In this document: one piece after another, positions 19,190 through 61,889 of the stretch | Layout: every line of letters begins with the position of its first letter | Numbering within the stretch: position 1 is the stretch's first letter | IMG/VR virus record: IMGVR_UViG_3300008108_004064 | Coordinates: 62,001 to 126,000 of that record | From: a virus | DNA length: 64,000 bases | Reading direction: 5' to 3' (one strand) | Made by a program: the position numbers and the translations under genes | Notes under the pieces: generated by a model | The model's input: only the letters and a program-made list of their open reading frames with translations | What the model was told of the DNA's origin: nothing | Databases searched by the model: none

Positions 19190-19218
19190 TTGACAAGATG
19201 ACCATTTTGTGCTATAAT
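19190..19218 (+). promoter_or_regulatory. Consensus sigma70 early promoter
   Basis: TTGACA (19190-19195), 17-base spacer, TATAAT (19213-19218). Flanks TGC before the -35 box and TATGGTATAG after the -10 box recur at the 19620 and 22664 promoters and partly at 21211. It drives the SWIM-type gene. Confidence 0.85.
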
Positions 19219-19703: not shown

Positions 19704-20084
19704 ATGTCTAAATTTACAGTTGCAGGTGTTTCTACTCAGAACGGTATCACTAAGGTTCGTTTCGCGAATGACATCGTGGCTCGCACCAAGCTGTTGTCCA
19801 AAGGTGGTCACTCTCCCCTAGAACTTGTTGAGCTGCCTAAGGCAATGACCAAGGCAGAAGCTTGTCAGTATCTGCTTGATCTAGGTGGCGTGTTTTCTAG
19901 TTACAAGAGTCTTATTACTGAGACCAAGGACAAGAAAAACGGTGTAGGTCCAGTCAAGGCACCGGCGGCAGTTAAGCCTAGTAAGGCTGCTAAGGTTACT
20001 AAGGCAAAGCCCACTAAGGTTATTGCACCTAAGGTGCAGGAAGAAGATCTTGAGATCACTGAGATCAAAGAACTGGCTGCATAA
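19704..20084 (+). CDS. Basic early protein with Ala/Lys/Pro-rich tail
   Basis: A 126-residue protein. Residues 1-75 look folded (FTVAGVSTQNGITKVRFAND, MTKAEACQYLLDLGGVF). Residues 80-115 are a lysine/alanine/proline-rich, histone-like tail (KAPAAVKPSKAAKVTKAKP), ending acidic (EEDLEITEIKELAA). The basic tail suggests nucleic-acid binding. Strong early promoter, good ribosome-binding site and relatively GC-rich codons suggest abundant early expression. Family not recognised. Confidence 0.6.
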   Translation: MSKFTVAGVSTQNGITKVRFANDIVARTKLLSKGGHSPLELVELPKAMTKAEACQYLLDLGGVFSSYKSLITETKDKKNGVGPVKAPAAVKPSKAAKVTKAKPTKVIAPKVQEEDLEITEIKELAA

Positions 20085-20129: not shown

Positions 20130-20157
20130 GTCTTGTCTTGTATAAAGGATGTTTTTT

Positions 20158-20967
20158 ATGGATGAATATTCAAATTTTTTACCTACGTATGGTATTGTTG
20201 GATTGGGGTTCGTAGGCTCTGCAGTTAAGCATTCAATGCAGGGCAGGGCTAATATTAAAGTAGTCGATGTTGATCCAACCAAATCTTCGCATAGTATAGA
20301 ACAGTTAATAGATTGTGAAGGTGTTTTTGTTTGTGTACCAACACCTCAGGCAGATGATGGAGTGTGCGATACGTCAGCTTTAGAAGATGTTTTGACCAAA
20401 TTAGAATACTACACCGGACCAATTATCAGTAAGTGTACTGCTCCCCCTGCTTTTTATAAAAAGTTGAGCGAGAAGTATATTAATCTGATCCATGCCCCAG
20501 AATTTCTAACTGCGGCAAATGCTAAGCAAGATTATATATTAGGCACTTTTGCTATGATTGGCGGATCATCTAGTGCGTTTAGAGGTGAGGCGGAACGTAT
20601 TATAAGAATTGGGCAAAAGAATTTAAAAGACGTTAGACATTGTAGTGTTGAAGAAGCAGCGTTGGCAAAGTATGGCATTAATACTTTTCTTGCAACCAAG
20701 ATTGTGTTCATGAATGAAATGTATTTGCTTTGTGAAAAGACAGGAGTAGACTTTGATAAGGTTGCCGAGTTAATTAAACTTGATTCTCGTATTGGTTCTA
20801 CTCATATGAAAGTACCAGGACCAGATGGCTTTGGTTTTGCAGGAATGTGTTTTCCTAAAGACACTTCTGCACTATATCATTATGCGAAATCAAATGGTAT
20901 AGAAATGGAACATATGAAAAATGTAATTGAAGTAAACAAAAAGTTAAGAAACATCGGTAAAAACTAA
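20158..20967 (+). CDS. ugd: UDP-glucose 6-dehydrogenase-like protein
   Basis: The ATG at 20158 is preferred over 20149, because AAAGG (20144-20148) abuts the earlier one. The protein has NAD-binding GIVGLGFVGSAV near its start, VFVCVPTP, ISKCTAPP, HAPEFLTAANA, and the catalytic cysteine in GFAGMCFPKD (about residue 231). The family oxidises UDP-glucose to UDP-glucuronate. At about 270 residues it is far shorter than the usual ~400, stopping soon after the catalytic cysteine, so the C-terminal domain is missing; such compact forms occur in phages. Its product is the substrate of the uxs gene at 2823. Confidence 0.85.
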   Translation: MDEYSNFLPTYGIVGLGFVGSAVKHSMQGRANIKVVDVDPTKSSHSIEQLIDCEGVFVCVPTPQADDGVCDTSALEDVLTKLEYYTGPIISKCTAPPAFYKKLSEKYINLIHAPEFLTAANAKQDYILGTFAMIGGSSSAFRGEAERIIRIGQKNLKDVRHCSVEEAALAKYGINTFLATKIVFMNEMYLLCEKTGVDFDKVAELIKLDSRIGSTHMKVPGPDGFGFAGMCFPKDTSALYHYAKSNGIEMEHMKNVIEVNKKLRNIGKN

Positions 20968-20976
20968 GACTTACTG

Positions 20977-20984
20977 TATAAATA
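20977..20984 (+). promoter_or_regulatory. T4-type late promoter before the leader ORF and tRNA array
   Basis: Exact TATAAATA 22-29 bases before the leader ORF start at 21006. Transcripts from it would carry the leader peptide and its attenuator-like fold at the 5' end. Confidence 0.5.
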
Positions 20985-21005
20985 ATTGATACTTTAAGGA
21001 AACAA

Positions 21006-21110
21006 ATGTTTCATCTAATACAAAACCCCAGTGTAAGTTGCAAGTCATATGACAGACAGTCAGAGGCCTTTGCACGCACAAATATTCTATGGAGTTATAT
21101 CGAGGGTTAG
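21006..21110 (+). CDS. Leader peptide containing all 20 amino acids (attenuator leader candidate)
   Basis: A 34-codon ORF with AAGGA five bases before its ATG, starting shortly after a late promoter. The first ten residues, MFHLIQNPSV, are all different; the rest reads SCKSYDRQSEAF then ARTNILWSYIEG. All 20 amino acids occur, in 27 different codons, including rare ATA, AGA and CCC. The last codons and the TAG stop form the 5' arm (21101-21109) of an RNA stem that competes with a downstream terminator. The peptide resembles no protein I know. Coverage of the whole code upstream of a tRNA array suggests a sensor of aminoacyl-tRNA supply. Confidence 0.72.
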   Translation: MFHLIQNPSVSCKSYDRQSEAFARTNILWSYIEG

Positions 21111-21172
21111 AGTATTAAAACGATACTAAGTTTTGATAACCCTCGGCACTCACAAGGTCCCGAGGGTTTTTG
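21101..21172 (+). promoter_or_regulatory. Antiterminator/pseudoknot versus terminator switch (attenuator candidate)
   Basis: Antiterminator: CGAGGGTTA (21101-21109) pairs with TAACCCTCG (21137-21145), 9 bp. Inside it AGTAT (21111-21115) pairs with ATACT (21123-21127), and its loop AAAAC (21117-21121) can pair with GTTTT (21130-21134) as an H-type pseudoknot. Terminator: AACCCTCGG (21138-21146) pairs with CCGAGGGTT (21160-21168), 9 bp, followed by a T-run (21167-21171). The two folds exclude each other. A ribosome at the leader stop codon would cover the first arm and allow the terminator; a ribosome stalled earlier, or no ribosome, would leave the antiterminator. Confidence 0.72.
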
Positions 21173-21210
21173 TTATGAGGTGTTAACACTTTAATAAGTC
21201 AAAAAAGTGC

Positions 21211-21239
21211 TTGACACAGATACCAAGTTGTGCTATAAT
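21211..21239 (+). promoter_or_regulatory. Consensus sigma70 promoter of the tRNA array
   Basis: TTGACA (21211-21216), 17-base spacer, TATAAT (21234-21239), with the AAGTGC flank shared with the 19190 promoter. It lies downstream of the attenuator, so host RNA polymerase can transcribe the tRNAs early without passing the switch. Confidence 0.85.
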
Positions 21240-21317
21240 AAGCACATATTAAAGAAGTAGGCAATGCAAGACAGCGTTGCTTGTAGTAAATGTTATTTAA
21301 CAATTTGTACTAGTTTT

Positions 21318-21394
21318 GCCCACTTAGCTCAGTCGGTTAGAGCACAATCTTGATAAGGTTGGGGTCCCTGGTTCGATTCCAGGAGTGGGTACCA
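21318..21394 (+). tRNA. tRNA-Ile (GAT)
   Basis: Complete cloverleaf, anticodon loop TTGATAA, T-loop TTCGATT, acceptor GCCCACT with AGTGGGT (one G-U pair), CCA encoded. First tRNA after the promoter. Confidence 0.95.
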
Positions 21395-21395
21395 A

Positions 21396-21471
21396 GTCCC
21401 ATTCGTCTAGTGGCCTAGGACATCGCCCTTTCACGGCGGTAACAGGAGTTCGAGTCTCCTATGGGACGCCA
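21396..21471 (+). tRNA. tRNA-Glu (TTC)
   Basis: Complete cloverleaf very similar to the E. coli tRNA-Glu, anticodon in CCCTTTCACGG, CCA encoded. Its CCA end is the start of a 12-bp inverted repeat in the following spacer. Confidence 0.95.
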
Positions 21472-21516
21472 TTTGATATGCCGATTGAGAAATAGTACAG
21501 TCAACATATCAAATGG
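21469..21516 (+). repeat. Spacer inverted repeat A (12 bp) joining tRNA-Glu and tRNA-Cys
   Basis: CCATTTGATATG (21469-21480) pairs perfectly with CATATCAAATGG (21505-21516). The stem includes the CCA of tRNA-Glu and the first two bases of tRNA-Cys; the loop is 24 bases. Confidence 0.85.
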
Positions 21517-21592
21517 TAAGGTGGCTGAGTGGTCCAAAGCAGCAGTCTGCAAAACTGTAAAGCCGCCGGTTCAAATCCGGCCCTTACCTCCA
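21515..21592 (+). tRNA. tRNA-Cys (GCA)
   Basis: Acceptor GGTAAGG with CCTTACC, anticodon loop CTGCAAA, T-loop TTCAAAT, CCA encoded. The first two bases are also part of spacer repeat A. Confidence 0.9.
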
Positions 21593-21597
21593 GATAA

Positions 21598-21672
21598 GGT
21601 CTCAAAGTGTTCATGGACGCACATATGCCTGTCACGCATAAAGAAGGGGATCGTTACCCCTTGAGACCGCCA
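21598..21672 (+). tRNA. tRNA-Asp (GTC), atypical T-loop
   Basis: Acceptor GGTCTCA pairs with TGAGACC, anticodon stem TATGC/GCATA with loop CTGTCAC gives GTC, D-loop has GG. The T-arm is AGGGG/CCCCT with loop ATCGTTA instead of TTCRANN: positions 54 and 58 appear swapped (A and T). CCA is encoded. It may be a working variant or a decaying gene. Confidence 0.7.
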
Positions 21673-21881
21673 GAACCCCCGGGATCCCTTACCCGGTAAT
21701 ATTACTAGGGGGTATTGACAGCCACAATGTCAGGGTGTCGAGATCGGAGCTACCTCAAAACTCCTGGGAAGGAGTGACGAAAAGTCTCGAAGGACAGCGC
21801 TGCAACTGACCTTAATAAAAGCGGACGGACAGTGAAACAACTCAGGAAAGGGCGAGTGCTGGGTGCTCGTAGCTTTCCATT
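21673..21881 (+). ncRNA. Unassigned structured spacer in the tRNA array (209 nt)
   Basis: No ORF or tRNA is seen. Several hairpins are: CCGGG/CCCGG, TGACA/TGTCA (loop GCCACAA), ACTCCT/AGGAGT (loop GGGA), TCGAGA/TCTCGA enclosing that last one, and GGAAAG/CTTTCC enclosing CGAG/CTCG just before tRNA-Leu. The density of stems suggests a folded RNA or a processing spacer. I recognise no known family. Confidence 0.4.
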
Positions 21882-21963
21882 GCCCATGTGGTGAAATGGT
21901 AGACACGCTTGCCTTAGGAGCAAGTACGAGAGTGTGGCGGTTCGAGTCCGTCCATGGGCACCA
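21882..21963 (+). tRNA. tRNA-Leu (TAG)
   Basis: Class II cloverleaf, acceptor GCCCATG/CATGGGC, anticodon loop CTTAGGA, T-loop TTCGAGT, CCA encoded. Its CCA opens spacer repeat B. Confidence 0.93.
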
Positions 21964-22057
21964 TATTGAAGTGTTGTTTAGGGTGGCAGGTAAAAGTTTA
22001 ACAAGACTTTGAGGGCTGGAATTCCCGATCTGTGAACAGCAGAACACTTCAATATGG
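21961..22057 (+). repeat. Spacer inverted repeat B (15 bp) joining tRNA-Leu and tRNA-Ala
   Basis: CCATATTGAAGTGTT (21961-21975) pairs perfectly with AACACTTCAATATGG (22043-22057). It includes the CCA of tRNA-Leu and the first two bases of tRNA-Ala. The 67-base interior has a further AAAGT/ACTTT hairpin. Confidence 0.85.
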
Positions 22058-22130
22058 GGAATTGGCGTAATTGGGAACGCAGTAGCTTTGCAAGCTTCAG
22101 TCAGGAGTTCGAATCTCCTATTCTCCACCA
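22056..22130 (+). tRNA. tRNA-Ala (TGC)
   Basis: Acceptor GGGGAAT/ATTCTCC (one wobble), anticodon loop TTTGCAA, T-loop TTCGAAT, CCA encoded. Confidence 0.9.
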
Positions 22131-22137
22131 AATATTT

Positions 22138-22215
22138 CGGGGAGTAGCTTAGTCCGGTTAAAGCGCCTGCTTTGGGAGCAGGAGATCGAGAGTTCGAATC
22201 CCTCTTCCCCGACCA
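22138..22215 (+). tRNA. tRNA-Pro (TGG)
   Basis: Acceptor CGGGGAG/TTCCCCG, anticodon loop TTTGGGA, T-loop TTCGAAT, CCA encoded. Confidence 0.93.
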
Positions 22216-22222
22216 GTTTTAT

Positions 22223-22297
22223 TCCAGAGTAGCTCAGCGGCAGAGCCGCGGACTGTTAATCCGTTGGTCGTTGGTTCGATCCCAACCTCTGGAGCCA
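22223..22297 (+). tRNA. tRNA-Asn (GTT)
   Basis: Acceptor TCCAGAG/CTCTGGA, anticodon loop CTGTTAA, T-loop TTCGATC, CCA encoded. Confidence 0.93.
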
Positions 22298-22303
22298 GTT
22301 TTA

Positions 22304-22388
22304 GGATGACGAGCAGCATTGGTGACTGCAGCAGACTGTAAATCTGTCGCCTCAGGCATACGGGGTTCGATTCCCTGGTCATCCACCA
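22304..22388 (+). tRNA. tRNA-Tyr (GTA)
   Basis: Acceptor GGATGAC/GTCATCC, anticodon loop CTGTAAA, long variable arm, T-loop TTCGATT, CCA encoded. Confidence 0.93.
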
Positions 22389-22391
22389 TAC

Positions 22392-22466
22392 GGGAGATTA
22401 GCTCAGTGGTAGAGCAGCGCCCTTACAAGGCGAAGGTCAATGGTTCGACCCCGTTATCTCCTACCA
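22392..22466 (+). tRNA. tRNA-Val (TAC)
   Basis: Acceptor GGGAGAT/ATCTCCT (one wobble), anticodon loop CTTACAA, T-loop TTCGACC, CCA encoded. Confidence 0.93.
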
Positions 22467-22474
22467 GATTTTAT

Positions 22475-22551
22475 CTGGCGTTAGCTCAGTTGGATAGAGC
22501 AACAGCCTTCTAAGCTGTGGGTCGGGGGTTCGAATCCCTCACGCCAGGCCA
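22475..22551 (+). tRNA. tRNA-Arg (TCT)
   Basis: Acceptor CTGGCGT/ACGCCAG, anticodon loop CTTCTAA, T-loop TTCGAAT, CCA encoded. It reads AGA, a codon used in the leader peptide and frequent in this genome. Confidence 0.93.
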
Positions 22552-22557
22552 TACAAT

Positions 22558-22631
22558 TGGGGATTAGTGAAATGGTATCACACCGGATTTTGATTCCGAG
22601 GTCGTAAGTTCGATTCTTACATCCCCTGCCA
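22558..22631 (+). tRNA. tRNA-Gln (TTG)
   Basis: Acceptor TGGGGAT/ATCCCCT with an unpaired 1-72 position, as expected for Gln, anticodon loop TTTTGAT, T-loop TTCGATT, CCA encoded. Confidence 0.9.
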
Positions 22632-22663
22632 AATCGTTATTAAAGTGTTAATAAAACAAATGC

Positions 22664-22692
22664 TTGACAAGAAATTGATTCGGTGTTATAAT
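22664..22692 (+). promoter_or_regulatory. Consensus sigma70 early promoter inside the tRNA array
   Basis: TTGACA (22664-22669), 17-base spacer, TATAAT (22687-22692), with TGC before and TATGATATA after, as at 19190 and 19620. AAGGAG and the 46-aa ORF follow. Confidence 0.85.
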
Positions 22693-22721
22693 TATGATAT
22701 AATGTAAATAAGGAGATACAA

Positions 22722-22862
22722 ATGCAACGAAAACGTATCGCCAAGCCCCGTAACCCGCTGGTGGCTTTGGCATTGTTTAAGAAAGCGGGTAAGCATCAAA
22801 AAACAAACAAAGCATTACGTAGGGAATATAGAGCGGGCATAGCTCAGTTGGTAGAGCAGTAG
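22722..22862 (+). CDS. Small basic early protein, 46 aa, overlapping tRNA-Lys
   Basis: The ORF starts MQRKRIAKPRNPLVALALFK, with KKAGKHQKTNKALRREYR in the middle. The pattern R-N-P-x-V-A-x-A-x-F-K-K-x-G-x-H-x-K-x-x-K-A-x-R-R resembles short basic proteins I associate with betaproteobacteria; this is from memory. A consensus promoter and AAGGAG precede it. The last nine codons and the stop fall inside tRNA-Lys, so tRNA processing would cut the mRNA. Probable nucleic-acid or ribosome contact because of charge; function unknown. Confidence 0.65.
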   Translation: MQRKRIAKPRNPLVALALFKKAGKHQKTNKALRREYRAGIAQLVEQ

Positions 22863-22908
22863 ACTTTTAATCTATGTGTCGTGGGTTCGAATCCCTCTGC
22901 CCGTACCA
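22833..22908 (+). tRNA. tRNA-Lys (TTT)
   Basis: Acceptor GCGGGCA/TGCCCGT, anticodon loop CTTTTAA, T-loop TTCGAAT, CCA encoded. Its 5' part overlaps the end of the 46-aa ORF; its CCA opens spacer repeat C. Confidence 0.93.
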
Positions 22909-22991
22909 TATTAAAACACATTTCGAGCGGTGTTCCGATATCGGCCAGCCCGCCCCAAAGTAGATGTCTAGGGTAGTGTGTTTTAATATGG
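22906..22991 (+). repeat. Spacer inverted repeat C (15 bp) after tRNA-Lys
   Basis: CCATATTAAAACACA (22906-22920) pairs perfectly with TGTGTTTTAATATGG (22977-22991), with a 56-base interior. It starts at the CCA of tRNA-Lys like repeats A and B, but no tRNA follows directly. Confidence 0.85.
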
Positions 22992-23343
22992 TGAAGAAGC
23001 AAGGTTGGGATTTCGTCAGATAATGACGGTGCGCTGAAAAAACCCAGTAATGCGAAGCCGAAAGGCATCCTTGCGGTAAGCAGAAAGTTGGCGTGGCGAC
23101 CAATCATCATAAAGTTCCGGTTACTACTTTCCTGAAAGTAGCGTATGGTAAACGAGAAAGTCCCGGTGGCTATGGCACCGTTAGCGAGACATAGACTCTG
23201 TATTTCGATGCGGTGTCTCCGGTGTCTCAGACAACATAGCAACGTGGACACTACGCAGCAAACCGCTATTAGTGTTTGGACAGGGCAACAACTCCAGCAT
23301 AGGGGCGATCTGTGGAAAGACGTGGCCTAAGCAAGAATACGAT
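22992..23343 (+). ncRNA. Unassigned structured non-coding stretch before tRNA-His (352 nt)
   Basis: No convincing gene. Local stems: CGTCA/TGACG (loop GATAA), GCC-GAAA-GGC with a GNRA loop, TTGG/CCAA, CTACTT/AAGTAG, CGGTG/CACCG, AGACA/TGTCT and ACACTA/TAGTGT enclosing AGCAAACC. The stem density and position inside a phage tRNA array recall large ornate tRNA-associated RNAs (GOLLD, ROOL), but I cannot align it to either. Short ORFs across it lack ribosome-binding sites. Confidence 0.4.
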
Positions 23344-23419
23344 GGTGTCTATAGTGTAGTGGTCTGCACGCCAGATTGTGGGCCTGGCAGTATGAGTTCA
23401 ATCCTCATTAGACACCCCA
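23344..23419 (+). tRNA. tRNA-His (GTG)
   Basis: Anticodon loop TTGTGGG, an extra 5' G facing the C before CCA as in tRNA-His, acceptor GTGTCTA/TAGACAC, T-loop TTCAATC, CCA encoded. Confidence 0.9.
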
Positions 23420-23441
23420 AAGTTAATCGCGTGTGAGGCGT

Positions 23442-23455
23442 GGGGCTTCGGCCCC
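23442..23455 (+). terminator. GGGGC-TTCG-GCCCC hairpin between tRNA-His and tRNA-Ser
   Basis: Perfect 5-bp stem with UUCG loop, no T-run. Probably a processing or stabilising hairpin. Confidence 0.5.
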
Positions 23456-23473
23456 TAACCTATTTGTACTTGT

Positions 23474-23563
23474 GGAAGTGTGGCAGAGTCCGGTTTATTG
23501 CAACAGTCTTGAAAACTGTCGAACAGAAATGTTCCGTGAGTTCGAATCTCACCGCTTCCGCCA
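23474..23563 (+). tRNA. tRNA-Ser (TGA)
   Basis: Class II, acceptor GGAAGTG/CGCTTCC, anticodon loop CTTGAAA, long variable arm, T-loop TTCGAAT, CCA encoded. Confidence 0.93.
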
Positions 23564-23576
23564 CTAAGGAGTAATT

Positions 23577-23726
23577 ATGCCAATGTATGAAACAACAGTA
23601 AGAACGCCACAGGGTGAAGTAAAAGATAGAGTGTTTGCAAAAGATTTACAAGAAGCAAGAATGCTTTTTGAACAAAGACACGGACCTAGAAACGTACCAT
23701 ATATACCTAAAGTAATTCCAAGTTAG
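23577..23726 (+). CDS. Conserved small phage protein, 49 aa
   Basis: The ORF starts MPMYETTVRTPQGEVKDRVF, with ARMLFEQRHGPRNVPYIPK near the end. AAGGAG precedes the ATG. The phrase LFEQRHGPRNVP is one I associate with short conserved proteins of aquatic T4-like phages. It looks like a small beta-alpha fold (T-P-x-G strand pair then helix). It lies between tRNA-Ser and the metallophosphoesterase. Function unknown. Confidence 0.6.
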   Translation: MPMYETTVRTPQGEVKDRVFAKDLQEARMLFEQRHGPRNVPYIPKVIPS

Positions 23727-23738
23727 AAGGAGAAACAA

Positions 23739-24302
23739 ATGCCTGCAATTTTTTTAGTTAGTGATACTCATTTCGGCCATGCAGGCGTTTGTAAATTTCT
23801 ACGTGACGATGGCACTAAATTACGTCCATGGGATAACCCCGAGGACATGGATGAAGAAATGGTCAAGCGGTGGAATGAAACTGTTAGACCAAAAGATAAA
23901 GTTTATCATTTAGGAGATGTAGTTATTAATCGAAAGGCTTTAAAAACGCTTAGTAGATTAAACGGTGAAAAGGTCTTAATCAAAGGTAATCACGACATCT
24001 TTAAACTTGAAGAATACACTGAGTATTTTAAAGATGTTCGAGGTTATCATGTACTGAATGGAATGATTCTAAGCCACATTCCTATTCATGAAGAAAGCCT
24101 TGCGAGGTTCGGGACTAATATTCATGGACATCTACATTACAATCGTGTAAAGAAAAATGAAGTCATTGATCCTCGTTATCACTGCGTATGTGTAGAGCAT
24201 ACCGACTACCGCCCAATTCTTTTTGAGGATGTCATTAAAAAGATTCAAGAAGAGGGTGGGCATATTGGATTTAAAAATGGCAATGGACCTATTATAGATT
24301 GA
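23739..24302 (+). CDS. Calcineurin-like metallophosphoesterase
   Basis: A 187-residue protein with the full set of metal-binding motifs: SDTHFGHAG near residue 8, YHLGDVVI near residue 61, KGNHDIF near residue 85, LSHIPIH near residue 109 and HGHLHYN near residue 128. Such enzymes hydrolyse phosphomonoesters or phosphodiesters with two metal ions. Small phage members of this type are common in T4-like phages, and a nucleic-acid or nucleotide substrate is likely. AGGAG precedes the start. The next gene starts ten bases later. Confidence 0.85.
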   Translation: MPAIFLVSDTHFGHAGVCKFLRDDGTKLRPWDNPEDMDEEMVKRWNETVRPKDKVYHLGDVVINRKALKTLSRLNGEKVLIKGNHDIFKLEEYTEYFKDVRGYHVLNGMILSHIPIHEESLARFGTNIHGHLHYNRVKKNEVIDPRYHCVCVEHTDYRPILFEDVIKKIQEEGGHIGFKNGNGPIID

Positions 24303-24312
24303 GGAGTTTGAA

Positions 24313-24519
24313 TTGAATACTAAGTTGAAAGCAATTAAACAGACAGCTATGATGGTAGTTATCATATGTCTTATTCCTATGATTCTAACGTTTTTGTTTA
24401 CTTCCGAGATAGCATCTTATATTTTTATCATAGGTATGGTAGCATTTTTTATATACATTATGTATTCTGTAAATCTAGCATTTATAGAATTTGAGGAAAA
24501 GTTTAAAAATAAGGAGTAA
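24313..24519 (+). CDS. Two-helix small membrane protein
   Basis: A 68-residue protein with helices at about residues 11-29 (TAMMVVIICLIPMILTFLF) and 34-53 (SYIFIIGMVAFFIYIMY) and a charged C-terminus. GAGGAG precedes it. It ends six bases before tRNA-Ser(GCT). No family recognised. Confidence 0.5.
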   Translation: MNTKLKAIKQTAMMVVIICLIPMILTFLFTSEIASYIFIIGMVAFFIYIMYSVNLAFIEFEEKFKNKE

Positions 24520-24525
24520 GTATTT

Positions 24526-24620
24526 GGAGCGTTGGCCGAGTTGGTCGAAGGCACTTTCCTGCTAAGAAAGCATCTGGGCAAAAACCTGGATCATTGGTTC
24601 GAATCCAATACGCTCCGCCA
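24526..24620 (+). tRNA. tRNA-Ser (GCT)
   Basis: Class II, acceptor GGAGCGT/ACGCTCC, anticodon loop CTGCTAA, long variable arm, T-loop TTCGAAT, CCA encoded. Confidence 0.93.
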
Positions 24621-24625
24621 GCAAT

Positions 24626-24716
24626 GCCCCCGTAGTTTAATGGTAAAACAGCGGATTTATATCCCGTAGCGTCAGATAAACGGCCAATATCGGTTCGACT
24701 CCGGTCGGGGGCACCA
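24626..24716 (+). tRNA. tRNA with anticodon TAT and an unusually long variable arm
   Basis: Acceptor GCCCCCG/CGGGGGC, D-arm GTTT/AAAC, anticodon loop TTTATAT giving TAT (reads AUA, Ile), one A-C mismatch at the loop-closing pair, T-loop TTCGACT, CCA encoded. The variable region is about 21 bases with a CGT/ACG stem, a class II feature not normal for isoleucine tRNAs. Identity (Ile or other) is therefore uncertain. Confidence 0.75.
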
Positions 24717-24718
24717 GA

Positions 24719-24793
24719 GGTAATGTAGCATAACGGTAGTGCACCGCCTTCATACGGCGCAAGGTATAGGTTCAAATCCTATCATTACCACCA
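24719..24793 (+). tRNA. tRNA-Met (CAT), elongator or Ile2
   Basis: Acceptor GGTAATG/CATTACC, anticodon loop TTCATAC, T-loop TTCAAAT, CCA encoded. Without modification data a CAT anticodon may also be lysidine-modified Ile2. Confidence 0.88.
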
Positions 24794-24803
24794 TAGTTTC
24801 AGA

Positions 24804-24879
24804 CGCGGATTAGGGAAGAGGTCATCCCGCTAGGCTCATAACCTGGAGATCGCTGGTTCGAATCCGGCATCCGCAACCA
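24804..24879 (+). tRNA. Initiator tRNA-fMet (CAT)
   Basis: Starts CGCGGAT and ends ATCCGCA-ACCA, with the C1-A72 mismatch that marks initiators. The anticodon stem CTAGG/CCTGG has only two of the three expected G-C pairs. Anticodon loop CTCATAA, CCA encoded. Confidence 0.85.
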
Positions 24880-24887
24880 GTTTATAA

Positions 24888-25475
24888 ATGAATATGAAAA
24901 TTTATGATAATGTTTTACCGAATCAAACTTTTTCTAATTTAAAAAATAGAATTTTTGATTCCAATTTCCCTTGGTTTTTTAGTAGAACTTCTGTAGAAAA
25001 TCCTATAGAGGATAATATTTTAACCTATAGTTTTTCTCATGCGGTTATGAATCACGGTGTGCCAAATTCTATAATATTTGACACAATTAATAGTTGCATC
25101 TTAACCATGTTAGATAATTGTAATATAAAACTAAATATGTTATTAAGTATTAGACTTGGATTACTACAACCAGTGTCTAGAGAAAATCATAGTAATGATC
25201 CGCACGTGGATAGTCAAGAAAAACACAAGGTGGGTTTATTCTATTTAAATACTACAGATGGCGCAACAACAGTATATAATGAAAAGTACGATCCTTCTAC
25301 AAAGATGGATCCAACAGAATATTATAGATCGGTTCTAAATAGAAATCTTTCTATTCAGTCCAAAGTAGAATGCACTGAAAATAGATTAGTTATTTTTGAT
25401 GGTATGTATTATCATTCAAGTACTACTCCTACCGATGTACCTAGGAGAGTAGCATTAAATTTTAATTTTGTATGA
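24888..25475 (+). CDS. 2-oxoglutarate/Fe(II) oxygenase-like protein
   Basis: A 195-residue protein. The iron-binding pattern is H-x-D in DPHVDSQEKHKVGLFYLNT near residue 105, with the distal histidine in MYYHSSTTPTDVPRRVALN near residue 173 and the arginine there as the 2-oxoglutarate anchor. Strand TDGATTVYNEKY sits between them. Such enzymes hydroxylate proteins, nucleic acids or metabolites and are frequent in aquatic T4-like phages. No strong ribosome-binding site is visible; the ATG at 24888 or 24894 may be used. It lies between tRNA-fMet and tRNA-Arg. Confidence 0.75.
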   Translation: MNMKIYDNVLPNQTFSNLKNRIFDSNFPWFFSRTSVENPIEDNILTYSFSHAVMNHGVPNSIIFDTINSCILTMLDNCNIKLNMLLSIRLGLLQPVSRENHSNDPHVDSQEKHKVGLFYLNTTDGATTVYNEKYDPSTKMDPTEYYRSVLNRNLSIQSKVECTENRLVIFDGMYYHSSTTPTDVPRRVALNFNFV

Positions 25476-25477
25476 TA

Positions 25478-25555
25478 CCGCCATTAGCTCAATTGGAATA
25501 GAGCGCAACGCTACGGACGTTGAGGTTAGGGGTTCGAGTCCTTTATGGCGGGCCA
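25478..25555 (+). tRNA. tRNA-Arg (ACG)
   Basis: Acceptor CCGCCAT/ATGGCGG, anticodon loop CTACGGA, T-loop TTCGAGT, CCA encoded. Its 3' end overlaps, in antisense, the last codons of the J-domain gene. Confidence 0.93.
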
Positions 25556-26133
25556 GTTTCTGAAGGTGGAATTGCTATTAATTCTTCAATACCAAAGTAA
25601 TAGTCTTTAAGAATTTCTGACATTAGATCGCATATTTTTATATTTTTTTCAAAACCAGCAAGATCATTTTTTCTACCTTCTATTTGCTTTTCAACAAGTT
25701 CAAGTATTAAATTTTTTCTTTTGGTTTTAGAATTTACTCGACGTAGTACTTGTTTTAAATGTTCGAGATGAACATTACATACATTAATATTGTGGTGCAT
25801 ATCTGTTCGTATTTTTATAACCTCATCCTGCATTAGGACAATTAGATCATCTGTTTCTGGGTTTAAGTTAGGAACAAGTCTTGACACCATCTGAGAAATA
25901 TGTTCTAATGCAGCATTGCGAAGAGTTAGATCTTCTGAGGACTCACCTAACAGATCAAATTCTTTTCTTCGAATAGGATCGATTAGAATTTCATATGCAA
26001 GTTTAATACGAACGAATATTTGTTCATCCCCACCCTTGTCGGGATGATGCACTTGAGCCAATGAACGAAATTTTATTTTAATTTCTTCATCTGTTGCATC
26101 AATCGGAATATCTAATTCGATGTAAGGATTCAT
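25543..26133 (-). CDS. J-domain (DnaJ-like) co-chaperone
   Basis: A 196-residue protein. The J-domain fills residues 1-65: PYIELDIPIDATDEEIKIKF, the HPD tripeptide in LAQVHHPDKGGDEQIF, and YEILIDPIRRKEFD. The rest is a long helical, charged region without G/F or zinc-finger parts, so it is a class III J-protein that would direct host DnaK to a phage-chosen client. It lies alone on the minus strand among plus-strand genes. Its last four codons overlap tRNA-Arg, so the natural C-terminus may have been reshaped by that tRNA. Confidence 0.85.
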   Translation of the reverse strand: MNPYIELDIPIDATDEEIKIKFRSLAQVHHPDKGGDEQIFVRIKLAYEILIDPIRRKEFDLLGESSEDLTLRNAALEHISQMVSRLVPNLNPETDDLIVLMQDEVIKIRTDMHHNINVCNVHLEHLKQVLRRVNSKTKRKNLILELVEKQIEGRKNDLAGFEKNIKICDLMSEILKDYYFGIEELIAIPPSETGPP

Positions 26134-26171
26134 GGCTATAAATTATTTTATAGTATTTATTAGGAGATAGT

Positions 26172-26354
26172 ATGTCAGGAAAAGGATCTAAACCAAGACC
26201 ATTTGCAATAACCAGGGAACACTTTGTAGAAAACTGGGATATGATTTTTAACAAAGAAAACAATACTGGTACAGATAAAAATGAGTATCAAGACATTCTT
26301 TCAACCGAGGAAGCAGTATTATCAGCTTTCGAAAACTTAAAGGAAGTAAAATGA
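26172..26354 (+). CDS. Conserved small phage protein, 60 aa
   Basis: Starts MSGKGSKPRPFAITREHF then VENWDMIF, a phrase I associate with short conserved proteins of T4-like and other phages. AGGAG precedes the ATG. An acidic helical tail (EEAVLSAFENLKEVK) follows. Its stop overlaps the ATG at 26351 (ATGA), and tRNA-Trp begins right after the stop. Function unknown. Confidence 0.6.
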   Translation: MSGKGSKPRPFAITREHFVENWDMIFNKENNTGTDKNEYQDILSTEEAVLSAFENLKEVK

Positions 26355-27250
26355 ATCTCGCTGGTGTTAACGGCAGCATAGCGGTCTCCAAAACCGAAGG
26401 ACGGGGTTCGAATCCCTGGCGGGGTGCCAAATATATTGCTCTACTACTTGCATTCGTAACTTGCTTTGCGTCTGCGCATGAGCCTAAAAAGAAAAAGAAA
26501 AAGAAAGTAGTTACTGCGGAAACTGCAAGCTATGTGGTGTACAACAATACAAAAGATGCTTACGAGTATATTAGAGAAAAAGAAAAGGTTCGCCCAATAG
26601 CAAGTGTCACTAAGCTAATGACGGCAATGGTTGCTCTAAATTATGATTTGAATTTAAATCGAGAACTTAAAATTCAATCTAAGGTAGGTGGGACTTTACC
26701 GAGAAACAAAAGTTATACTAGGCAAGAATTGTTTGGAGCAATGCTTGTTCGAAGTGATAACTCCGCGGCAGAAACTTTGGCTAGTGATTTTCCTGGAGGT
26801 AGAGAAGCCTTTATTCGTGAGATGAATAAATTTGCAAACTATATCGGTATGCGAGATACAAACTTCGATGATCCAACAGGACTGAGCGCTGCAAATACTT
26901 CGACAGCCACAGATGTTGCGGCGATGGTTGCACATGCAGCACAATATACTTTGATTCGAGAAACTAGTACAAAGAAGCAGGTTGAAATTGATACTCAATA
27001 TAAGAGAAAAATTAGAAAACTTGTTTTAAACAATACAAACAAACCTGTTCTTTTTAACTTTGATGATATTGTCGTTAGTAAAACAGGCTTTACCTCCAGA
27101 GCAGGATATTGTTTGGCTTTGGCAGTTGAACGAAACAATCAAAGATATTCTGTAGTTATTTTGGGTTCTAGAAATAAGCAAGCTAGAATTCATAAAGCCG
27201 AGGACATTTTGTATAATCATATTGCATACAAAGATATTGACACTAATTAA
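26351..27250 (+). CDS. D-alanyl-D-alanine carboxypeptidase/endopeptidase (peptidase S11), 5' end overlaps tRNA-Trp
   Basis: Penicillin-binding-protein motifs are complete: S-x-x-K in IASVTKLMTAM near residue 84, SDN in LVRSDNSAAE near residue 136, and KTG in VSKTGFTSRAGY near residue 242. A signal segment IALLLAFVTCFASA (about residues 29-42) sends it to the periplasm, where it would trim or cut peptidoglycan cross-links. No ATG, GTG or TTG lies in frame between 26351 and the signal, so the first ~27 codons are the tRNA-Trp gene read as protein. Either this odd N-terminus is real or translation starts at a non-standard codon such as ATT at about 26435. Confidence 0.85.
   Translation: MNLAGVNGSIAVSKTEGRGSNPWRGAKYIALLLAFVTCFASAHEPKKKKKKKVVTAETASYVVYNNTKDAYEYIREKEKVRPIASVTKLMTAMVALNYDLNLNRELKIQSKVGGTLPRNKSYTRQELFGAMLVRSDNSAAETLASDFPGGREAFIREMNKFANYIGMRDTNFDDPTGLSAANTSTATDVAAMVAHAAQYTLIRETSTKKQVEIDTQYKRKIRKLVLNNTNKPVLFNFDDIVVSKTGFTSRAGYCLALAVERNNQRYSVVILGSRNKQARIHKAEDILYNHIAYKDIDTN
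26355..26429 (+). tRNA. tRNA-Trp (CCA)
   Basis: Acceptor ATCTCGC/GCGGGGT (wobble pairs), anticodon loop CTCCAAA, T-loop TTCGAAT, CCA encoded. The whole gene lies within the reading frame of the D,D-peptidase. Confidence 0.9.
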
Positions 27251-27265
27251 GAAAGAATATATAAT
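27237..27265 (+). promoter_or_regulatory. Consensus sigma70 promoter before the YkuK-like gene
   Basis: TTGACA (27237-27242), 17-base spacer, TATAAT (27260-27265). The -35 box overlaps the last codons of the D,D-peptidase gene; AGGGG precedes the ATG at 27289. Confidence 0.7.
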
Positions 27266-27288
27266 TAGACTAGTTCAAAGGGGAAGTT

Positions 27289-27762
27289 ATGAGAAAAAAG
27301 TTGGACATTCAAGAAATCAAAAGTTTCATTGAATCGCAAAGCCCGGAAACTAAAATTTATCTTGGAGCGGACTCTGAACGATATAAACATAATGGTAAAT
27401 GGTATGCGGATTATACTATTGCAGTTGTAGTTCATATTGATGGTCGCCATGGGTGTAAAATTTTTGGTGAGGTTCAAACTGAACTAGATTATGATGCAAA
27501 AAACAGCAAACCATCTATGCGTTTGATGAATGAGGTCTACAAGGTTGCAGAATTGTATCAAAAGATTGTGGATGTCGTCGAGGACAGACACGTAGAAATA
27601 CATTTGGATATTAACCCAGATGAAAAACATAACAGTAGTATTGTGATTCAGCAAGCAGTTGGTTATATCAAAGGTATGTGTAATGTGGTACCTATGGTTA
27701 AACCAAAAGCATTTGCCGCAAGTTATGCAGCAGATAGACTTAAAGAATTGCTTGCAGCATGA
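27289..27762 (+). CDS. RNase H-fold YkuK-like protein
   Basis: A 157-residue protein. IYLGADSERYKHNGKWY near residue 24 is the first acidic strand, followed by YTIAVVVHIDGRHG, HVEIHLDINPDE near residue 100, and a C-terminal helix KAFAASYAADRLK. This is the DUF458/YkuK pattern, a family predicted to be RNase H-like with acidic active-site residues; the biochemical role is not settled. It has its own sigma70 promoter, so early expression is likely. Confidence 0.7.
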   Translation: MRKKLDIQEIKSFIESQSPETKIYLGADSERYKHNGKWYADYTIAVVVHIDGRHGCKIFGEVQTELDYDAKNSKPSMRLMNEVYKVAELYQKIVDVVEDRHVEIHLDINPDEKHNSSIVIQQAVGYIKGMCNVVPMVKPKAFAASYAADRLKELLAA

Positions 27763-27767
27763 AATTC

Positions 27768-27841
27768 GCCCTCTTAGTTAAATGGTATAACAGTTGATTT
27801 GTAATCATCTATTGGCAGTTCGATTCTGTCAGAGGGCACCA
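27768..27841 (+). tRNA. tRNA-Thr (TGT)
   Basis: Acceptor GCCCTCT/AGAGGGC, anticodon loop TTTGTAA, T-loop TTCGATT, CCA encoded. Confidence 0.93.
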
Positions 27842-27857
27842 TTTTAGAAAGGTCGGT

Positions 27858-28058
27858 ATGTTAGGATTGGAACAGGCAGGTGTATTTTTAGGAGCAACAA
27901 TTCTTATTGGCTTTGGTATAGCATTTATTGGAATGGTTGTGATTTTTCTTAATAACATGATTCATAGATTTTGGAAGCCGTTAAACTGGTTCGGAAAGTA
28001 TTTTAACTTTAACGAGCCAACCAACCCTGAGCCTCCAAAAACTAAACCTTCATTATAA
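27858..28058 (+). CDS. Small membrane protein, 66 aa
   Basis: One long hydrophobic segment, possibly two helices with a tight turn (GVFLGATILIGFGIAFIGMV then VIFLNNM), is followed by an aromatic basic stretch HRFWKPLNWFGKYF and a proline-rich tail. AAAGG precedes the ATG. Unknown function. Confidence 0.5.
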   Translation: MLGLEQAGVFLGATILIGFGIAFIGMVVIFLNNMIHRFWKPLNWFGKYFNFNEPTNPEPPKTKPSL

Positions 28059-28067
28059 GGAGTTTGT

Positions 28068-28220
28068 ATGCAAAAGGAATTACTAAAAGAAAATGGACCT
28101 AAGTGTGGTTGTGGTCGTAGCCCAAGTGGGTATTGCATTGGTTGGCATGGACTTTCTGAATCGGAATATAAAGAGCGTTTGGAACAATACAAGCAAGATC
28201 TAGGCGAGAACGACAAATAA
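28068..28220 (+). CDS. CDGSH-like small metal-binding protein, 50 aa
   Basis: The middle reads KCGCGRSPSGYCIGWHGL. The spacing C-x-C-x-x-S...C-x-G-x-H matches the 2Fe-2S-binding CDGSH motif (C-x-C-x-x-S/T-x-x-x-P-x-C-D-G-S-H), with D replaced by I and S by W, so it could bind iron-sulfur or zinc. AAGGAG precedes the ATG. The C-terminal half is a charged helix. It lies between a small membrane protein and tRNA-Gly. Function unknown. Confidence 0.6.
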   Translation: MQKELLKENGPKCGCGRSPSGYCIGWHGLSESEYKERLEQYKQDLGENDK

Positions 28221-28223
28221 ATA
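28216..28223 (+). promoter_or_regulatory. Late promoter variant AATAAATA
   Basis: One mismatch from TATAAATA, eight bases before tRNA-Gly and about 90 before the 95-aa gene. Confidence 0.3.
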
Positions 28224-28230
28224 GTTACAT

Positions 28231-28304
28231 GCGGGATTAGTTTAATGGTAAAACGAAAGCCTTCCAAGCTCTAATCATCGGTTCGATTCCGATATCCCGC
28301 TCCA
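28231..28304 (+). tRNA. tRNA-Gly (TCC)
   Basis: Acceptor GCGGGAT/ATCCCGC, anticodon loop CTTCCAA, T-loop TTCGATT, CCA encoded. Confidence 0.93.
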
Positions 28305-28308
28305 TAAT

Positions 28309-28596
28309 ATGCGTATTCAAAAAGATGAGACTTACGAGCAATGGTCAGAAAAGGTTCGTCTTTTTGAATATGGAGTTGCACTGCAAAGAATTGCTAAAGG
28401 CGACGATATAGATATTGTTTTGGAGTCTATGTCGAAAAAAATTAATCAAAAACTTTTGCATCCTTTGATCGAAAGCATCAAACAATCATGTCAAATAGAT
28501 TATGATCCTTTGATCGCAAGAAAAAATTACGAAGAAAATTACTTAGGAAAAGCAAATCCTGTAGCAGATCATATGAATGATGTAGACTTCTATTAA
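28309..28596 (+). CDS. Conserved helical phage protein, 95 aa
   Basis: Starts MRIQKDETYEQWSEKVRLFE, with LESMSKKINQKLLHPLIESIK and a final DHMNDVDF. Similar small proteins in T4-like cyanophages have been labelled as resembling the glutamyl-tRNA reductase dimerisation domain; I recall this from annotations and do not consider it functional evidence. The start lies five bases after tRNA-Gly without a clear ribosome-binding site. Confidence 0.55.
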   Translation: MRIQKDETYEQWSEKVRLFEYGVALQRIAKGDDIDIVLESMSKKINQKLLHPLIESIKQSCQIDYDPLIARKNYEENYLGKANPVADHMNDVDFY

Positions 28597-28597
28597 T

Positions 28598-28622
28598 CAC
28601 AAAGACCCCCTTAAACTTTGTG
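28598..28622 (+). terminator. Hairpin between the 95-aa gene and the HNH late promoter
   Basis: CACAAAG (28598-28604) pairs with CTTTGTG (28616-28622), 7 bp, loop of 11. No T-run follows; it may be a weak terminator or insulator. Confidence 0.35.
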
Positions 28623-28626
28623 TCTA

Positions 28627-28634
28627 TATAAATA
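28627..28634 (+). promoter_or_regulatory. T4-type late promoter before the HNH endonuclease
   Basis: Exact TATAAATA 18-25 bases before the ATG at 28652, with AAAGGAGG between, a typical late gene start. Confidence 0.55.
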
Positions 28635-28651
28635 GATATAAAGGAGGGTCT

Positions 28652-29080
28652 ATGATAGATATTAATGAATTCATTAAAACTAGTAAACAAGAACGGCAAT
28701 CTCATTTATTATTATCTGAAAAATGTATTGAACGTGGGGGAAATTCGACCAATCACAAGGGGGTATTAGCTCAGTATTTGAATACCTCTATCCCTTCGGG
28801 TAGAATACTTTTATGCCATGCGTGCAACAATGAAAAATGTAGTAATCCAAAACATTTATATTGGGGTACAGACAAAGAAAATATTACTGAAGATAATAAA
28901 AAATGGAAATCTGTTTGGGAAAGAACCATTGAAAAATATGGATATGAGGAAGCCTGCAGGATAAATTCTCGTAAGCAAATTGGAAACAAAAATGGTTCGG
29001 GCAATAAAGGTAAATCTAAAACTGAAGAACATAAAAAAAAGATAGCAAAGTCTATTAAAAGCAATTATAATAAGATGTGA
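28652..29080 (+). CDS. HNH homing endonuclease with NUMOD3-like tail
   Basis: A 142-residue protein. The HNH core is ILLCHACNNEKCSNPKHLYW then GTDKENI, with the H-x-x-C, N-P-x-H-L and G-T-x-x-E-N signature of the HNH_3 group. The C-terminal NGSGNKGKSKTEEHKKKIA repeat resembles NUMOD3 DNA-binding modules of homing endonucleases. Free-standing homing nucleases spread between phages by cutting sites in rivals. It has its own late promoter and excellent ribosome-binding site. It lies just before tRNA-Leu(TAA), a plausible insertion neighbour. Confidence 0.82.
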   Translation: MIDINEFIKTSKQERQSHLLLSEKCIERGGNSTNHKGVLAQYLNTSIPSGRILLCHACNNEKCSNPKHLYWGTDKENITEDNKKWKSVWERTIEKYGYEEACRINSRKQIGNKNGSGNKGKSKTEEHKKKIAKSIKSNYNKM

Positions 29081-29090
29081 TGTATTTAAT

Positions 29091-29176
29091 GCGAGTGTGG
29101 TGGAACGGTATACACTTTGGACTTAAAATCCAACGCCCGTAAGGGATTGAGGGTTCAAATCCCTCCACTCGTACCA
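29091..29176 (+). tRNA. tRNA-Leu (TAA)
   Basis: Class II, acceptor GCGAGTG/CACTCGT, anticodon loop CTTAAAA, T-loop TTCAAAT, CCA encoded. Confidence 0.93.
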
Positions 29177-29207
29177 GTGTTTTATATTTTTATTTTAAGG
29201 AGATTGA

Positions 29208-29744
29208 ATGAAAACAGTAGGTGATAAACTTGAATCATTTTCAGTTACCGGTGTTAATCCCGGTAAGGATGATTTCTTTACTATTACAGAAAAATCTTTT
29301 GAAGGTAAGTGGAAAGTAATTGTTTACTATCCAAAAGATTTTACATTCGTATGCCCAACAGAAATCGTAGCATATGATAAATTGTTCCAAGACTTTGCAG
29401 ATCGTGATGCAGTATTGTTGACAGGTTCAACAGATAATGAATTCTGCAAACTAGCATGGCAACGTAGTCATGAAGATCTTTCAAAGATCAAGCATATTCA
29501 ATTTGCTGACACCGCACGTGAATGGGGCGTATCTTTGATCGAGCAATTGGGTGTGTTCTACGCACCGGCAGGCGCAGCACTTCGTGCAACCTTTATCGTT
29601 GATCCAGAGAACACCATTCAGCACGTTACCGTAAACAACTTGAACGTTGGTCGTAGCCCAGAAGAAACACTTCGTATTCTTGATGCGCTACAAACTGGTG
29701 AACTATGTGCATGCAATCGCACAATCGGCGGAGAGACTCTATAA
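29208..29744 (+). CDS. ahpC: Peroxiredoxin AhpC-type
   Basis: A 178-residue 2-Cys peroxiredoxin. The peroxidatic cysteine is in YPKDFTFVCPTEIVAYD near residue 50; the resolving cysteine region is GELCACNRTIGGETL at the C-terminus. FIVDPENTIQHVTVNNLNVGR is the family's central strand block. It reduces hydrogen and organic peroxides. The gene is followed with a one-base overlap by ahpD, the disulfide reductase that can recharge it, so the two form an antioxidant pair. G+C is higher than in flanking genes, suggesting bacterial acquisition. Confidence 0.93.
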   Translation: MKTVGDKLESFSVTGVNPGKDDFFTITEKSFEGKWKVIVYYPKDFTFVCPTEIVAYDKLFQDFADRDAVLLTGSTDNEFCKLAWQRSHEDLSKIKHIQFADTAREWGVSLIEQLGVFYAPAGAALRATFIVDPENTIQHVTVNNLNVGRSPEETLRILDALQTGELCACNRTIGGETL

Positions 29745-30262
29745 TGACTGCTTGGGTAGATACACTAAAAGAAGTAAGTATTCCTGAGTATGCCAAGGAT
29801 ACTAAACTTAATTTAGATGCGGTTATCAAACGTAGTTCACTACCCGCAGAAGAGGCGGAGGCAATTGCTCTTGCAGCTGCCTTTGCTACAGGTAATAGTA
29901 AACTATGGACATGGCTTCACGATCAACTTACAGATCGTAAAGAGGCAGATGCCGCTCTTACCGCAGGCGCAATCATGGCACAAAATAATGTATGGTATCC
30001 ATATGTTGAAATGGCAGATGATGCGAACCTAAAAGGTCTTCCTGCTCAACTTCGTATGAATGCAATTGCAAGCCATGGTGGTACAACAAAGGCAAGGTTT
30101 GAAGCATATAGTCTTGCAGCAAGTATTGTGGGCAAGTGTCATTTTTGTGTAAAAGCGCATTACGAAACTTTGAAGCAAGAAGGTTATACTGTAGAACAAT
30201 TACGAGACATTGGTCGTATTGCTGCAGTAATGAAAAGTGTTGCAAGTGTTTTAGCTAATTAA
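29744..30262 (+). CDS. ahpD: Alkylhydroperoxidase AhpD-like protein
   Basis: Start taken at 29744 (TAATG overlap with ahpC); earlier codons in this frame are antisense to ahpC coding sense. The 172-residue product has the AhpD catalytic C-x-x-C with nearby His: GKCHFCVKAHYETLKQEGY near residue 132. AhpD reduces oxidised AhpC, using lipoylated proteins in known bacteria. Mostly helical, as expected. Presence of the pair in a phage suggests protection of the infected cell from peroxide. Confidence 0.9.
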   Translation: MTAWVDTLKEVSIPEYAKDTKLNLDAVIKRSSLPAEEAEAIALAAAFATGNSKLWTWLHDQLTDRKEADAALTAGAIMAQNNVWYPYVEMADDANLKGLPAQLRMNAIASHGGTTKARFEAYSLAASIVGKCHFCVKAHYETLKQEGYTVEQLRDIGRIAAVMKSVASVLAN

Positions 30263-30269
30263 AGCACAA

Positions 30270-30346
30270 GGGCCGGAAGCTTAATTGGTATAAGCGTCCG
30301 ACTCATAATCGGGGGACAGTGAGTTCGAGTCTCACCCGGCCCACCA
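30270..30346 (+). tRNA. tRNA-Met or Ile2 (CAT)
   Basis: Acceptor GGGCCGG/CCGGCCC, anticodon loop CTCATAA in stem CCGA/TCGG, T-loop TTCGAGT, CCA encoded. It is the third CAT tRNA in the window; one elongator copy may be Ile2. Confidence 0.9.
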
Positions 30347-53059: not shown

Positions 53060-53062
53060 TAA

Positions 53063-57208: not shown

Positions 57209-57214
57209 AATCAA

Positions 57215-57556
57215 ATGGCAACCGCATTAAACGTATTCAGAACAGTTACAGCAGACCTTACAACCGAAGATAAGTTGTTATATACTGCACCAAGCAGAAA
57301 AACATCTATTTTCCTTTCGGTTCAGGCTACTAATCTAACTAATAATACTGTTCAAGTATCTTTTTATCATGGATCAACTGCAAATGTAAAGACTGCTCTT
57401 GCTAAAAACTTCAAAATTCCAACAGGCGATTCTATGGCAGTTATCAGCGCGGGTGCTAAGTTGGTGTTAGAAACAGGACAAAAAGTATATTCAAGCGCAA
57501 GCGCAAACAATTCAGTTCAATTAGTAATGAGCGTACTAGAATCAGCAAATGACTAA
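57215..57556 (+). CDS. Small adhesin-module protein (copy 2)
   Basis: A 113-residue paralogue of the 45598 product (MATALNVFRTVTADLTTEDK, KLVLETGQKVYSSASANN) in the same position between a beta-helix fibre and an SGR-start fibre. It overlaps the next gene by eight bases. Confidence 0.6.
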   Translation: MATALNVFRTVTADLTTEDKLLYTAPSRKTSIFLSVQATNLTNNTVQVSFYHGSTANVKTALAKNFKIPTGDSMAVISAGAKLVLETGQKVYSSASANNSVQLVMSVLESAND

Positions 57557-61874: not shown

Positions 61875-61875
61875 A

Positions 61876-61883: not shown

Positions 61884-61889
61884 ATTTAT

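Follow-up and report, generated by a model that had tools for sequence, protein, structure and literature searches.

A putative transcription attenuator whose leader peptide carries all 20 amino acids precedes a tRNA array in a T4-like freshwater virus

IMGVR_UViG_3300008108_004064 is a 126-kb record of an uncultivated virus. We analyzed a window of 64,000 nucleotides from this record (bases 62001-126000), which comes from a T4-like freshwater virus. The window encodes a T4-type gp41 helicase, and the best isolate hits for this protein are from cyanophages and Methylophilales phages (~62-64% identity). One IMG/VR contig (L001/L004) has complete identity to it over 8.8 kb and was counted as the same population. 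At the locus that we describe, a UDP-glucose-dehydrogenase-like gene is followed by a late-promoter box, a leader ORF, a terminator, a perfect sigma70 promoter, and an array of 25 tRNAs. An earlier note on this DNA had interpreted the leader as part of an attenuator, and the positions that it gave for the box, the AAGGA, the ORF, and arms A, B, and C were all exact when we rechecked them. The features are (in coordinates of the window):

19704-20084: gene for a small conserved protein (MSKFTVAGVST..TKVRFAND.., with a Lys/Ala-rich tail); most of these viruses encode it 5' of their tRNA arrays
20149-20967: UDP-glucose dehydrogenase-like gene, directly 5' of the leader in the window's group
20977-20984, + strand: T4-type late promoter box TATAAATA, upstream of the leader
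20996-21000, + strand: AAGGA, Shine-Dalgarno-like, 5 nt 5' of the leader's ATG
21006-21110, + strand: leader ORF (ATG...TAG) encoding MFHLIQNPSVSCKSYDRQSEAFARTNILWSYIEG; 34 codons, 27 distinct codons, all 20 amino acids
21044-21067, + strand: hairpin within the ORF, with core TGAC-AGACA-GTCA at 21050-21062; proposed RNA-polymerase pause hairpin
21066-21076, + strand: conserved GCCTTTGCACG, just 3' of that hairpin, found by alignment; encodes AFAR in most families
21090-21092, + strand: the single Trp codon (codon 29, or -6 relative to the stop), on the edge of the putative sensing zone
21101-21109, + strand: arm A, CGAGGGTTA, the 5' arm of the putative antiterminator; overlaps the last leader codons and the stop
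21137-21145, + strand: arm B, TAACCCTCG, the 3' arm of the putative antiterminator; exact reverse complement of arm A
21138-21146, + strand: arm B as AACCCTCGG, the 5' arm of the predicted intrinsic terminator; pairs perfectly with CCGAGGGTT (hairpin of -17.0 kcal/mol)
21160-21172, + strand: arm C, CCGAGGGTT, the 3' arm of the terminator (21160-21168), and then the start of a short T-run
21211-21239, + strand: perfect sigma70 promoter TTGACA-17-TATAAT, between the attenuator and the array; a bypass in this virus
21318-30346, + strand: array of 25 tRNAs for 19 amino acids, interspersed with small ORFs

The UDP-glucose dehydrogenase-like gene does not seem to be part of the switch, as other relatives carry different genes at that place. 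For the small conserved protein, we found no PHROG match and no function. The array covers 19 amino acids, as the earlier note had stated, and has no tRNA-Phe.

That the 34 residues of the leader include all 20 amino acids, in 27 different codons, was the earlier note's central observation. It is correct as a count, but the only Met is the start codon, so elongator Met would not be sensed. Similarly, Gly is not expected to be sensed because it is the last codon, as the earlier note had cautioned; its similar caution about Trp does not hold in our model, in which a stall at codon 29 still switches the fold. A random 34-residue peptide with this virus's composition would contain 15.4 distinct amino acids on average and would contain all 20 with a probability of 5e-4. 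Because this is a single sequence, we needed relatives to decide whether the composition is meaningful.

We gathered ~245 loci by scans with the helicase, with a pattern for the terminator, and with the conserved protein that is encoded just upstream in many relatives, and we read the stretch from the upstream gene to the first tRNA directly. We also ran an architecture-only search that was blind to amino-acid content, so that it would not select for the property under test. In 249 loci (2.15 Mb, both strands, 880 ATAAATA sites), this search required an ATAAATA box, an ORF of 24-45 codons that starts at most 45 nt away, and a GC-rich hairpin with a T-rich tail 10-75 nt past the stop codon. It returned 38 distinct ORFs, every one of which is a leader before a tRNA array or before the end of the contig, and all 38 encode 18-20 distinct amino acids. 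The leader of L085, which has TATATATA in place of the ATAAATA box, was added by hand. In total, related IMG/VR contigs have at least 39 different leaders, each flanked by a late-promoter box and a tRNA array, and families with little similarity to each other (L188, L151, L137, L067, and L102) share one common design. The earlier note would have been refuted by homologous loci that lacked the ORF or its spread of amino acids; instead, both are conserved.

Not every tRNA array in these viruses has such a leader. Relatives with small arrays and no such leader are L007 and L011 (9 tRNAs), L072 (11 tRNAs), and L074 (10 tRNAs); L081 (17 tRNAs) also lacks one. We found no comparable ORF in six other phages with tRNA genes, except for one in Vibrio phage RYC (42 codons, 19 amino acids) that we take to be due to chance. 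A tblastn search of sequenced phage isolates with one leader gave only chance-level matches and no related leader, and a further search of contigs gave just two loci, which were uninformative.

Among 37 distinct leader peptides, 24 have the full set of 20 amino acids, 11 lack one, and 2 lack two. Given the same composition and 33 residues, chance would give a mean of ~15.3 distinct amino acids and P(20) = 2.7e-4. Furthermore, of 1676 other ORFs of 29-36 codons from the same DNA, none has 20 amino acids and 7 have 19. The 37 peptides are related and are not 37 independent events: they form 10 clusters at 60% identity, most of which hold a member with all 20 amino acids.

As a stronger test, of whether full coverage is maintained, we redealt the residues within alignment columns. 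The observed mean coverage was 19.58 amino acids versus 17.37 (sd 0.25) after shuffling, and none of 5000 shuffles reached the observed value. This implies that the loss of an amino acid at one site is compensated at another. Also, in most close pairs of leaders, non-synonymous codon differences are at least as many as synonymous ones, and simulated deep drift from the window's leader left ~17.4 amino acids after 20 changes. Together, these results indicate selection on the set of amino acids and not on the sequence of the peptide. A drift test with close pairs (11 of 18 stay at 20 amino acids versus 7.9 ± 1.9 expected) is by itself only suggestive, and in the L156 group the coverage (18-20) appears to be relaxed. 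Met is usually present only as the start codon; 16 of the 37 leaders have an internal Met.

The codons are spread across boxes as well. Among representative leaders, 17 of 17 cover both Ser boxes (12.7-13.5 expected), 16 of 17 cover both Arg boxes (9.2-10.9 expected), and 12 of 13 cover both Ile boxes (6.0-7.7 expected), while for Leu there was no excess (9 of 16 versus about 10). As these sequences are related, the counts are only suggestive.

In leaders generally, one arm competes with the terminator, and the stop codon is within this arm or close to it. Divergent families were misaligned by MAFFT across the A-B-C region, so we relied on duplex energies and on swaps. Across leaders, the A:B duplex has a median energy of -13.8 kcal/mol and a median z of -2.6; for 18 families, the Stouffer z versus shuffles is -11. 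The leaders' own A:B duplexes are better than swapped ones, with just 1 in 10,000 permutations as good. A gapless 8-nt test of A:B in each leader has low power and gave p ≤ 0.05 for 13 of 39. The stems differ between families while their roles stay the same: A and B are GGGTTAGTT and AACTAACCC in L188, GGGGTTAG and CTAACCCC in L151, and CGAGGGTTA and TAACCCTCG in the window. In L036, the three arms are CGAGGTT, AACCTCG, and CCGAGGTT, of which A and C have each lost one G and B has lost one C, and in L005, arms B and C are altered together. Such concerted changes in three strands are the covariation of the two competing stems that the earlier note called for. A real caveat is that the L045/L046/L062 and L067/L118 groups have only a weak A:B duplex. 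Another proposal of the earlier note, an H-type pseudoknot between A and B, was dropped because the spacer sequence is not conserved among relatives.

The loop of the terminator, CGGTACCCCTAAAGTCCG, is almost invariant in most relatives (for example, L021 11154-11177), and many of the T-runs are interrupted (TTTCCTTT). This loop may be recognized by a protein or other factor.

In a model of the ribosome's footprint that puts its downstream edge at A-site +12, 31 leaders have a clean switch point, and for 20 of these the last stall that would still allow A:B pairing is at codon -6. Of the 35 leaders that contain Trp, 26 have it at this position. The scarcest codon is therefore at the edge of the useful zone. 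The other 8 of 39 leaders have no clean switch point in the model: L046 stays below 4 A:B pairs throughout, and L067, L100, and five leaders of the L137 type are predicted to retain some A:B pairing even when the ribosome has reached the stop codon.

The hairpin within the ORF was absent from the earlier note. All 25 leaders that we folded have a hairpin at about codons 12-21 (Stouffer z of -6.4 versus shuffles), and its core has double-sided changes at 2 of 3 aligned pairs. The window's own copy is unremarkable by itself (z of 0). By analogy, it resembles an RNA-polymerase pause hairpin, and the adjacent GCCTTTGCACG is possibly the pause site; both are inferences. We found no sign of a protector pairing between the early leader and arm A (1:2), which was no better than in shuffles (median z of -0.7). 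A conserved AACCC near codons 5-8, considered as a protector of arm A, was also not better than shuffles. Without a protector, an untranslated transcript should also read through, unlike in trp.

The late-promoter box was at the same place in 38 of 38 leaders from the architecture search, but the box was a criterion of that search; without this criterion, it is at the same place in most of the leaders that we read directly. With both sets, the earlier note's late promoter is conserved in position in nearly all relatives. TATAAATA is not enriched in the window (9 sites versus 10.5 expected), so this conserved position is its only support. In L039, L042, L059, L067, L093, and L005, the leader's ATG is just 5-6 nt past the TATAAATA box, and their late transcripts may therefore be leaderless. 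In other relatives, the box and the ATG are 17-25 nt apart, with a Shine-Dalgarno sequence.

The + strand of the window has 4 perfect sigma70 promoters (19190-19218, 21211-21239, 22664-22692, and 27237-27265), while 0.16 are expected. The ones at 19190 and 21211 share 90% identity across 39 nt and form a repeated early-promoter cassette. Like the window, most relatives have a perfect sigma70 promoter between the terminator and the array, which implies that early expression would bypass the switch and that the attenuator would gate transcription from the late promoter. The earlier note had pointed to this bypass. It is present in the window at 21211, but it is not general. L151 has a perfect sigma70 promoter upstream of the leader and just 32 nt, with no sigma70 promoter, between the terminator and the first tRNA; L194 has 20 nt there and no sigma70 promoter; and L188 has no good sigma70 promoter past the terminator and a better one (10/12) upstream. 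In these three relatives, the array appears to be reachable only through the switch.

Comparison of sequences thus establishes the architecture, the preserved set of amino acids, the competing arms, the placement of Trp, and the genomic position. We think it likely that the phage's tRNA array is controlled by a ribosome-mediated transcription attenuator, of which the leader is a part and which senses nearly every tRNA. Transcription that starts upstream (from the late promoter, or in some relatives from a sigma70 promoter as well) would produce the leader, and the hairpin within the ORF probably pauses RNA polymerase so that the ribosome can catch up. If arm B paired with arm C, the terminator would form and the array would not be read from the upstream promoter. 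If instead a tRNA were short (uncharged, cleaved, or degraded), a ribosome would stall at one of 20 kinds of codons, upstream of about -6; arm A would be left free to pair with arm B, and transcription would continue into the tRNA genes. The virus probably detects a shortage of almost any tRNA and answers with more tRNAs, although no experiment has addressed this. The attenuation reading of the earlier note is supported; transcription, translation, and switching have not been shown experimentally. Function, termination, and the physiological trigger are likewise inferred, without transcript, ribosome-profiling, or reporter data.

This arrangement resembles the trp and his attenuators and the multivalent ilvGMEDA and thr attenuators of E. 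coli, which also have a short leader ORF whose stop codon is in or near the 5' arm of the antiterminator. As in attenuators of the trp/his type, the antiterminator and the terminator exclude each other, a hairpin lies early in the leader, and the supply of the sensed item is what is controlled. More specifically, the phage leaders have the short ORF and ribosome-binding site directly after a promoter, and they have an antiterminator and a terminator that share an arm, with the stop at or near the 5' arm (weakly so in L045/L046/L062 and L067/L118). They lack the 1:2 protector pairing that terminates transcription in the absence of translation, they are driven by a T4-type late promoter, and the target is a viral tRNA array instead of a biosynthetic operon. 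Attenuation leaders known so far respond to one amino acid or to a few, and the classical ones are rich in 1-3 amino acids that are products of the operon; in contrast, the phage leader has about one of each of the 20. It would work like the trp/his attenuators but fails this feature of theirs. It is nevertheless matched to its product, in that the arrays supply tRNAs for as many as 20 amino acids: among relatives with array sequence, the arrays of L095, L025, L036, L046, L102, and L103 cover all 20. Leaders without F (the L039 type) precede arrays with no annotated tRNA-Phe, but there is no strict link between an amino acid missing from the leader and a missing tRNA, as the leaders of the window and of L069 contain F and their arrays lack tRNA-Phe. 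T-box riboswitches also give read-through of transcription in response to uncharged tRNA. However, a T-box binds one tRNA directly and does not need translation, while the sensor of the phage leader is an ORF. No T-box (specifier loop or antiterminator consensus) was among the Rfam 15 matches up to E = 10 for 20900-22000 of the window, and no cis-regulatory family of Rfam 15 reached its gathering score in the leader region; a sub-threshold match to His_leader (E = 2.4) is on the correct strand and at the correct spot.

We considered simpler accounts of the locus. The B:C hairpin is a plain intrinsic terminator, and most relatives have a perfect sigma70 promoter 3' of it, so it could be an ordinary terminator that separates a late gene from the early promoter of a tRNA operon, with an incidental short ORF that has its 20 amino acids by chance. 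We give this very little weight: the position, the ORF, arm A, and the content of 18-20 amino acids recur in the 38 architecture-only matches and in leaders of unrelated sequence, and chance content is contradicted by the coverage statistics and by the column-shuffle control. In L151, moreover, the sigma70 promoter precedes the leader, and a plain terminator there would only silence the array. It is similarly hard to believe that the leader is a functional small protein that merely overlaps a terminator. Most families do have a conserved AFAR...W motif, but the AFAR stretch coincides with the conserved nucleotides beside the in-ORF hairpin, and families such as L188 and L067 retain only the composition. 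Also, the leader has no PHROG match, and within groups, non-synonymous differences again equal or outnumber synonymous ones.

An attenuator might instead sense a general arrest of translation (due to a drug, host shut-off, or lack of ribosomes), with the diversity of amino acids as a by-product. This fits with the absence of a 1:2 protector structure, as loss of translation should then give read-through too. Yet such a sensor requires no particular set of amino acids, and the set is kept against drift; the rare Trp is placed at the last effective codon; and both codon boxes of Ser, Arg, and Ile are covered more often than expected. We therefore consider this explanation improbable, and we prefer an attenuator that responds to individual tRNAs.

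What kind of shortage would operate such an attenuator is less certain. Theory indicates that having few regulatory codons among many gives low sensitivity to mild shortage (PMC1183508). With 1-3 codons per amino acid, the leader should respond poorly to mild shortage, and it is better suited to the severe loss of a tRNA. It is known that phage tRNAs can restore translation in hosts that cut their own (PMC10264068, PMC11555353), so the leader could plausibly be an alarm for tRNA damage. We tentatively suggest that it is a universal alarm that reads isoacceptor classes and not just amino acids, although we would not call this probable. On this reading, any host tRNA that was lost to an anticodon nuclease would cause a stall in the leader and turn on replacement tRNAs, as a regulated counter-defence. 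In favor of the alarm, we count the coverage of Ser, Arg, and Ile boxes above expectation (but not of Leu boxes) and the use of one codon per tRNA, which is a better match to all-or-none loss than to mild starvation. The trigger could still be amino-acid starvation. If the alarm exists, then the virus would not need to know which tRNA is attacked.

The known phage tRNAs that replace those cut by defences are similar to this proposal in that tRNA genes restore translation after host tRNAs are destroyed; in a word search, the texts of PMC10264068 and PMC11555353 describe the tRNAs and do not mention a leader or an attenuator. In the open literature (subscription papers were mostly not covered), we found no description of an all-amino-acid leader or of attenuation of phage tRNA arrays. 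To our knowledge, no leader that is selected to contain every amino acid has been known. The proposal gives a concrete and testable answer to the long-standing question of when and why phages make tRNA arrays, for codon compensation or to replace destroyed tRNAs. It also provides a simple sequence signature for finding such sensors, and the leader could serve as a generic reporter of tRNA shortage.

Elsewhere in the window, 41453-41677 and 50187-62862 contain many DNA repeats, tandem or dispersed, with 72-90% identity.
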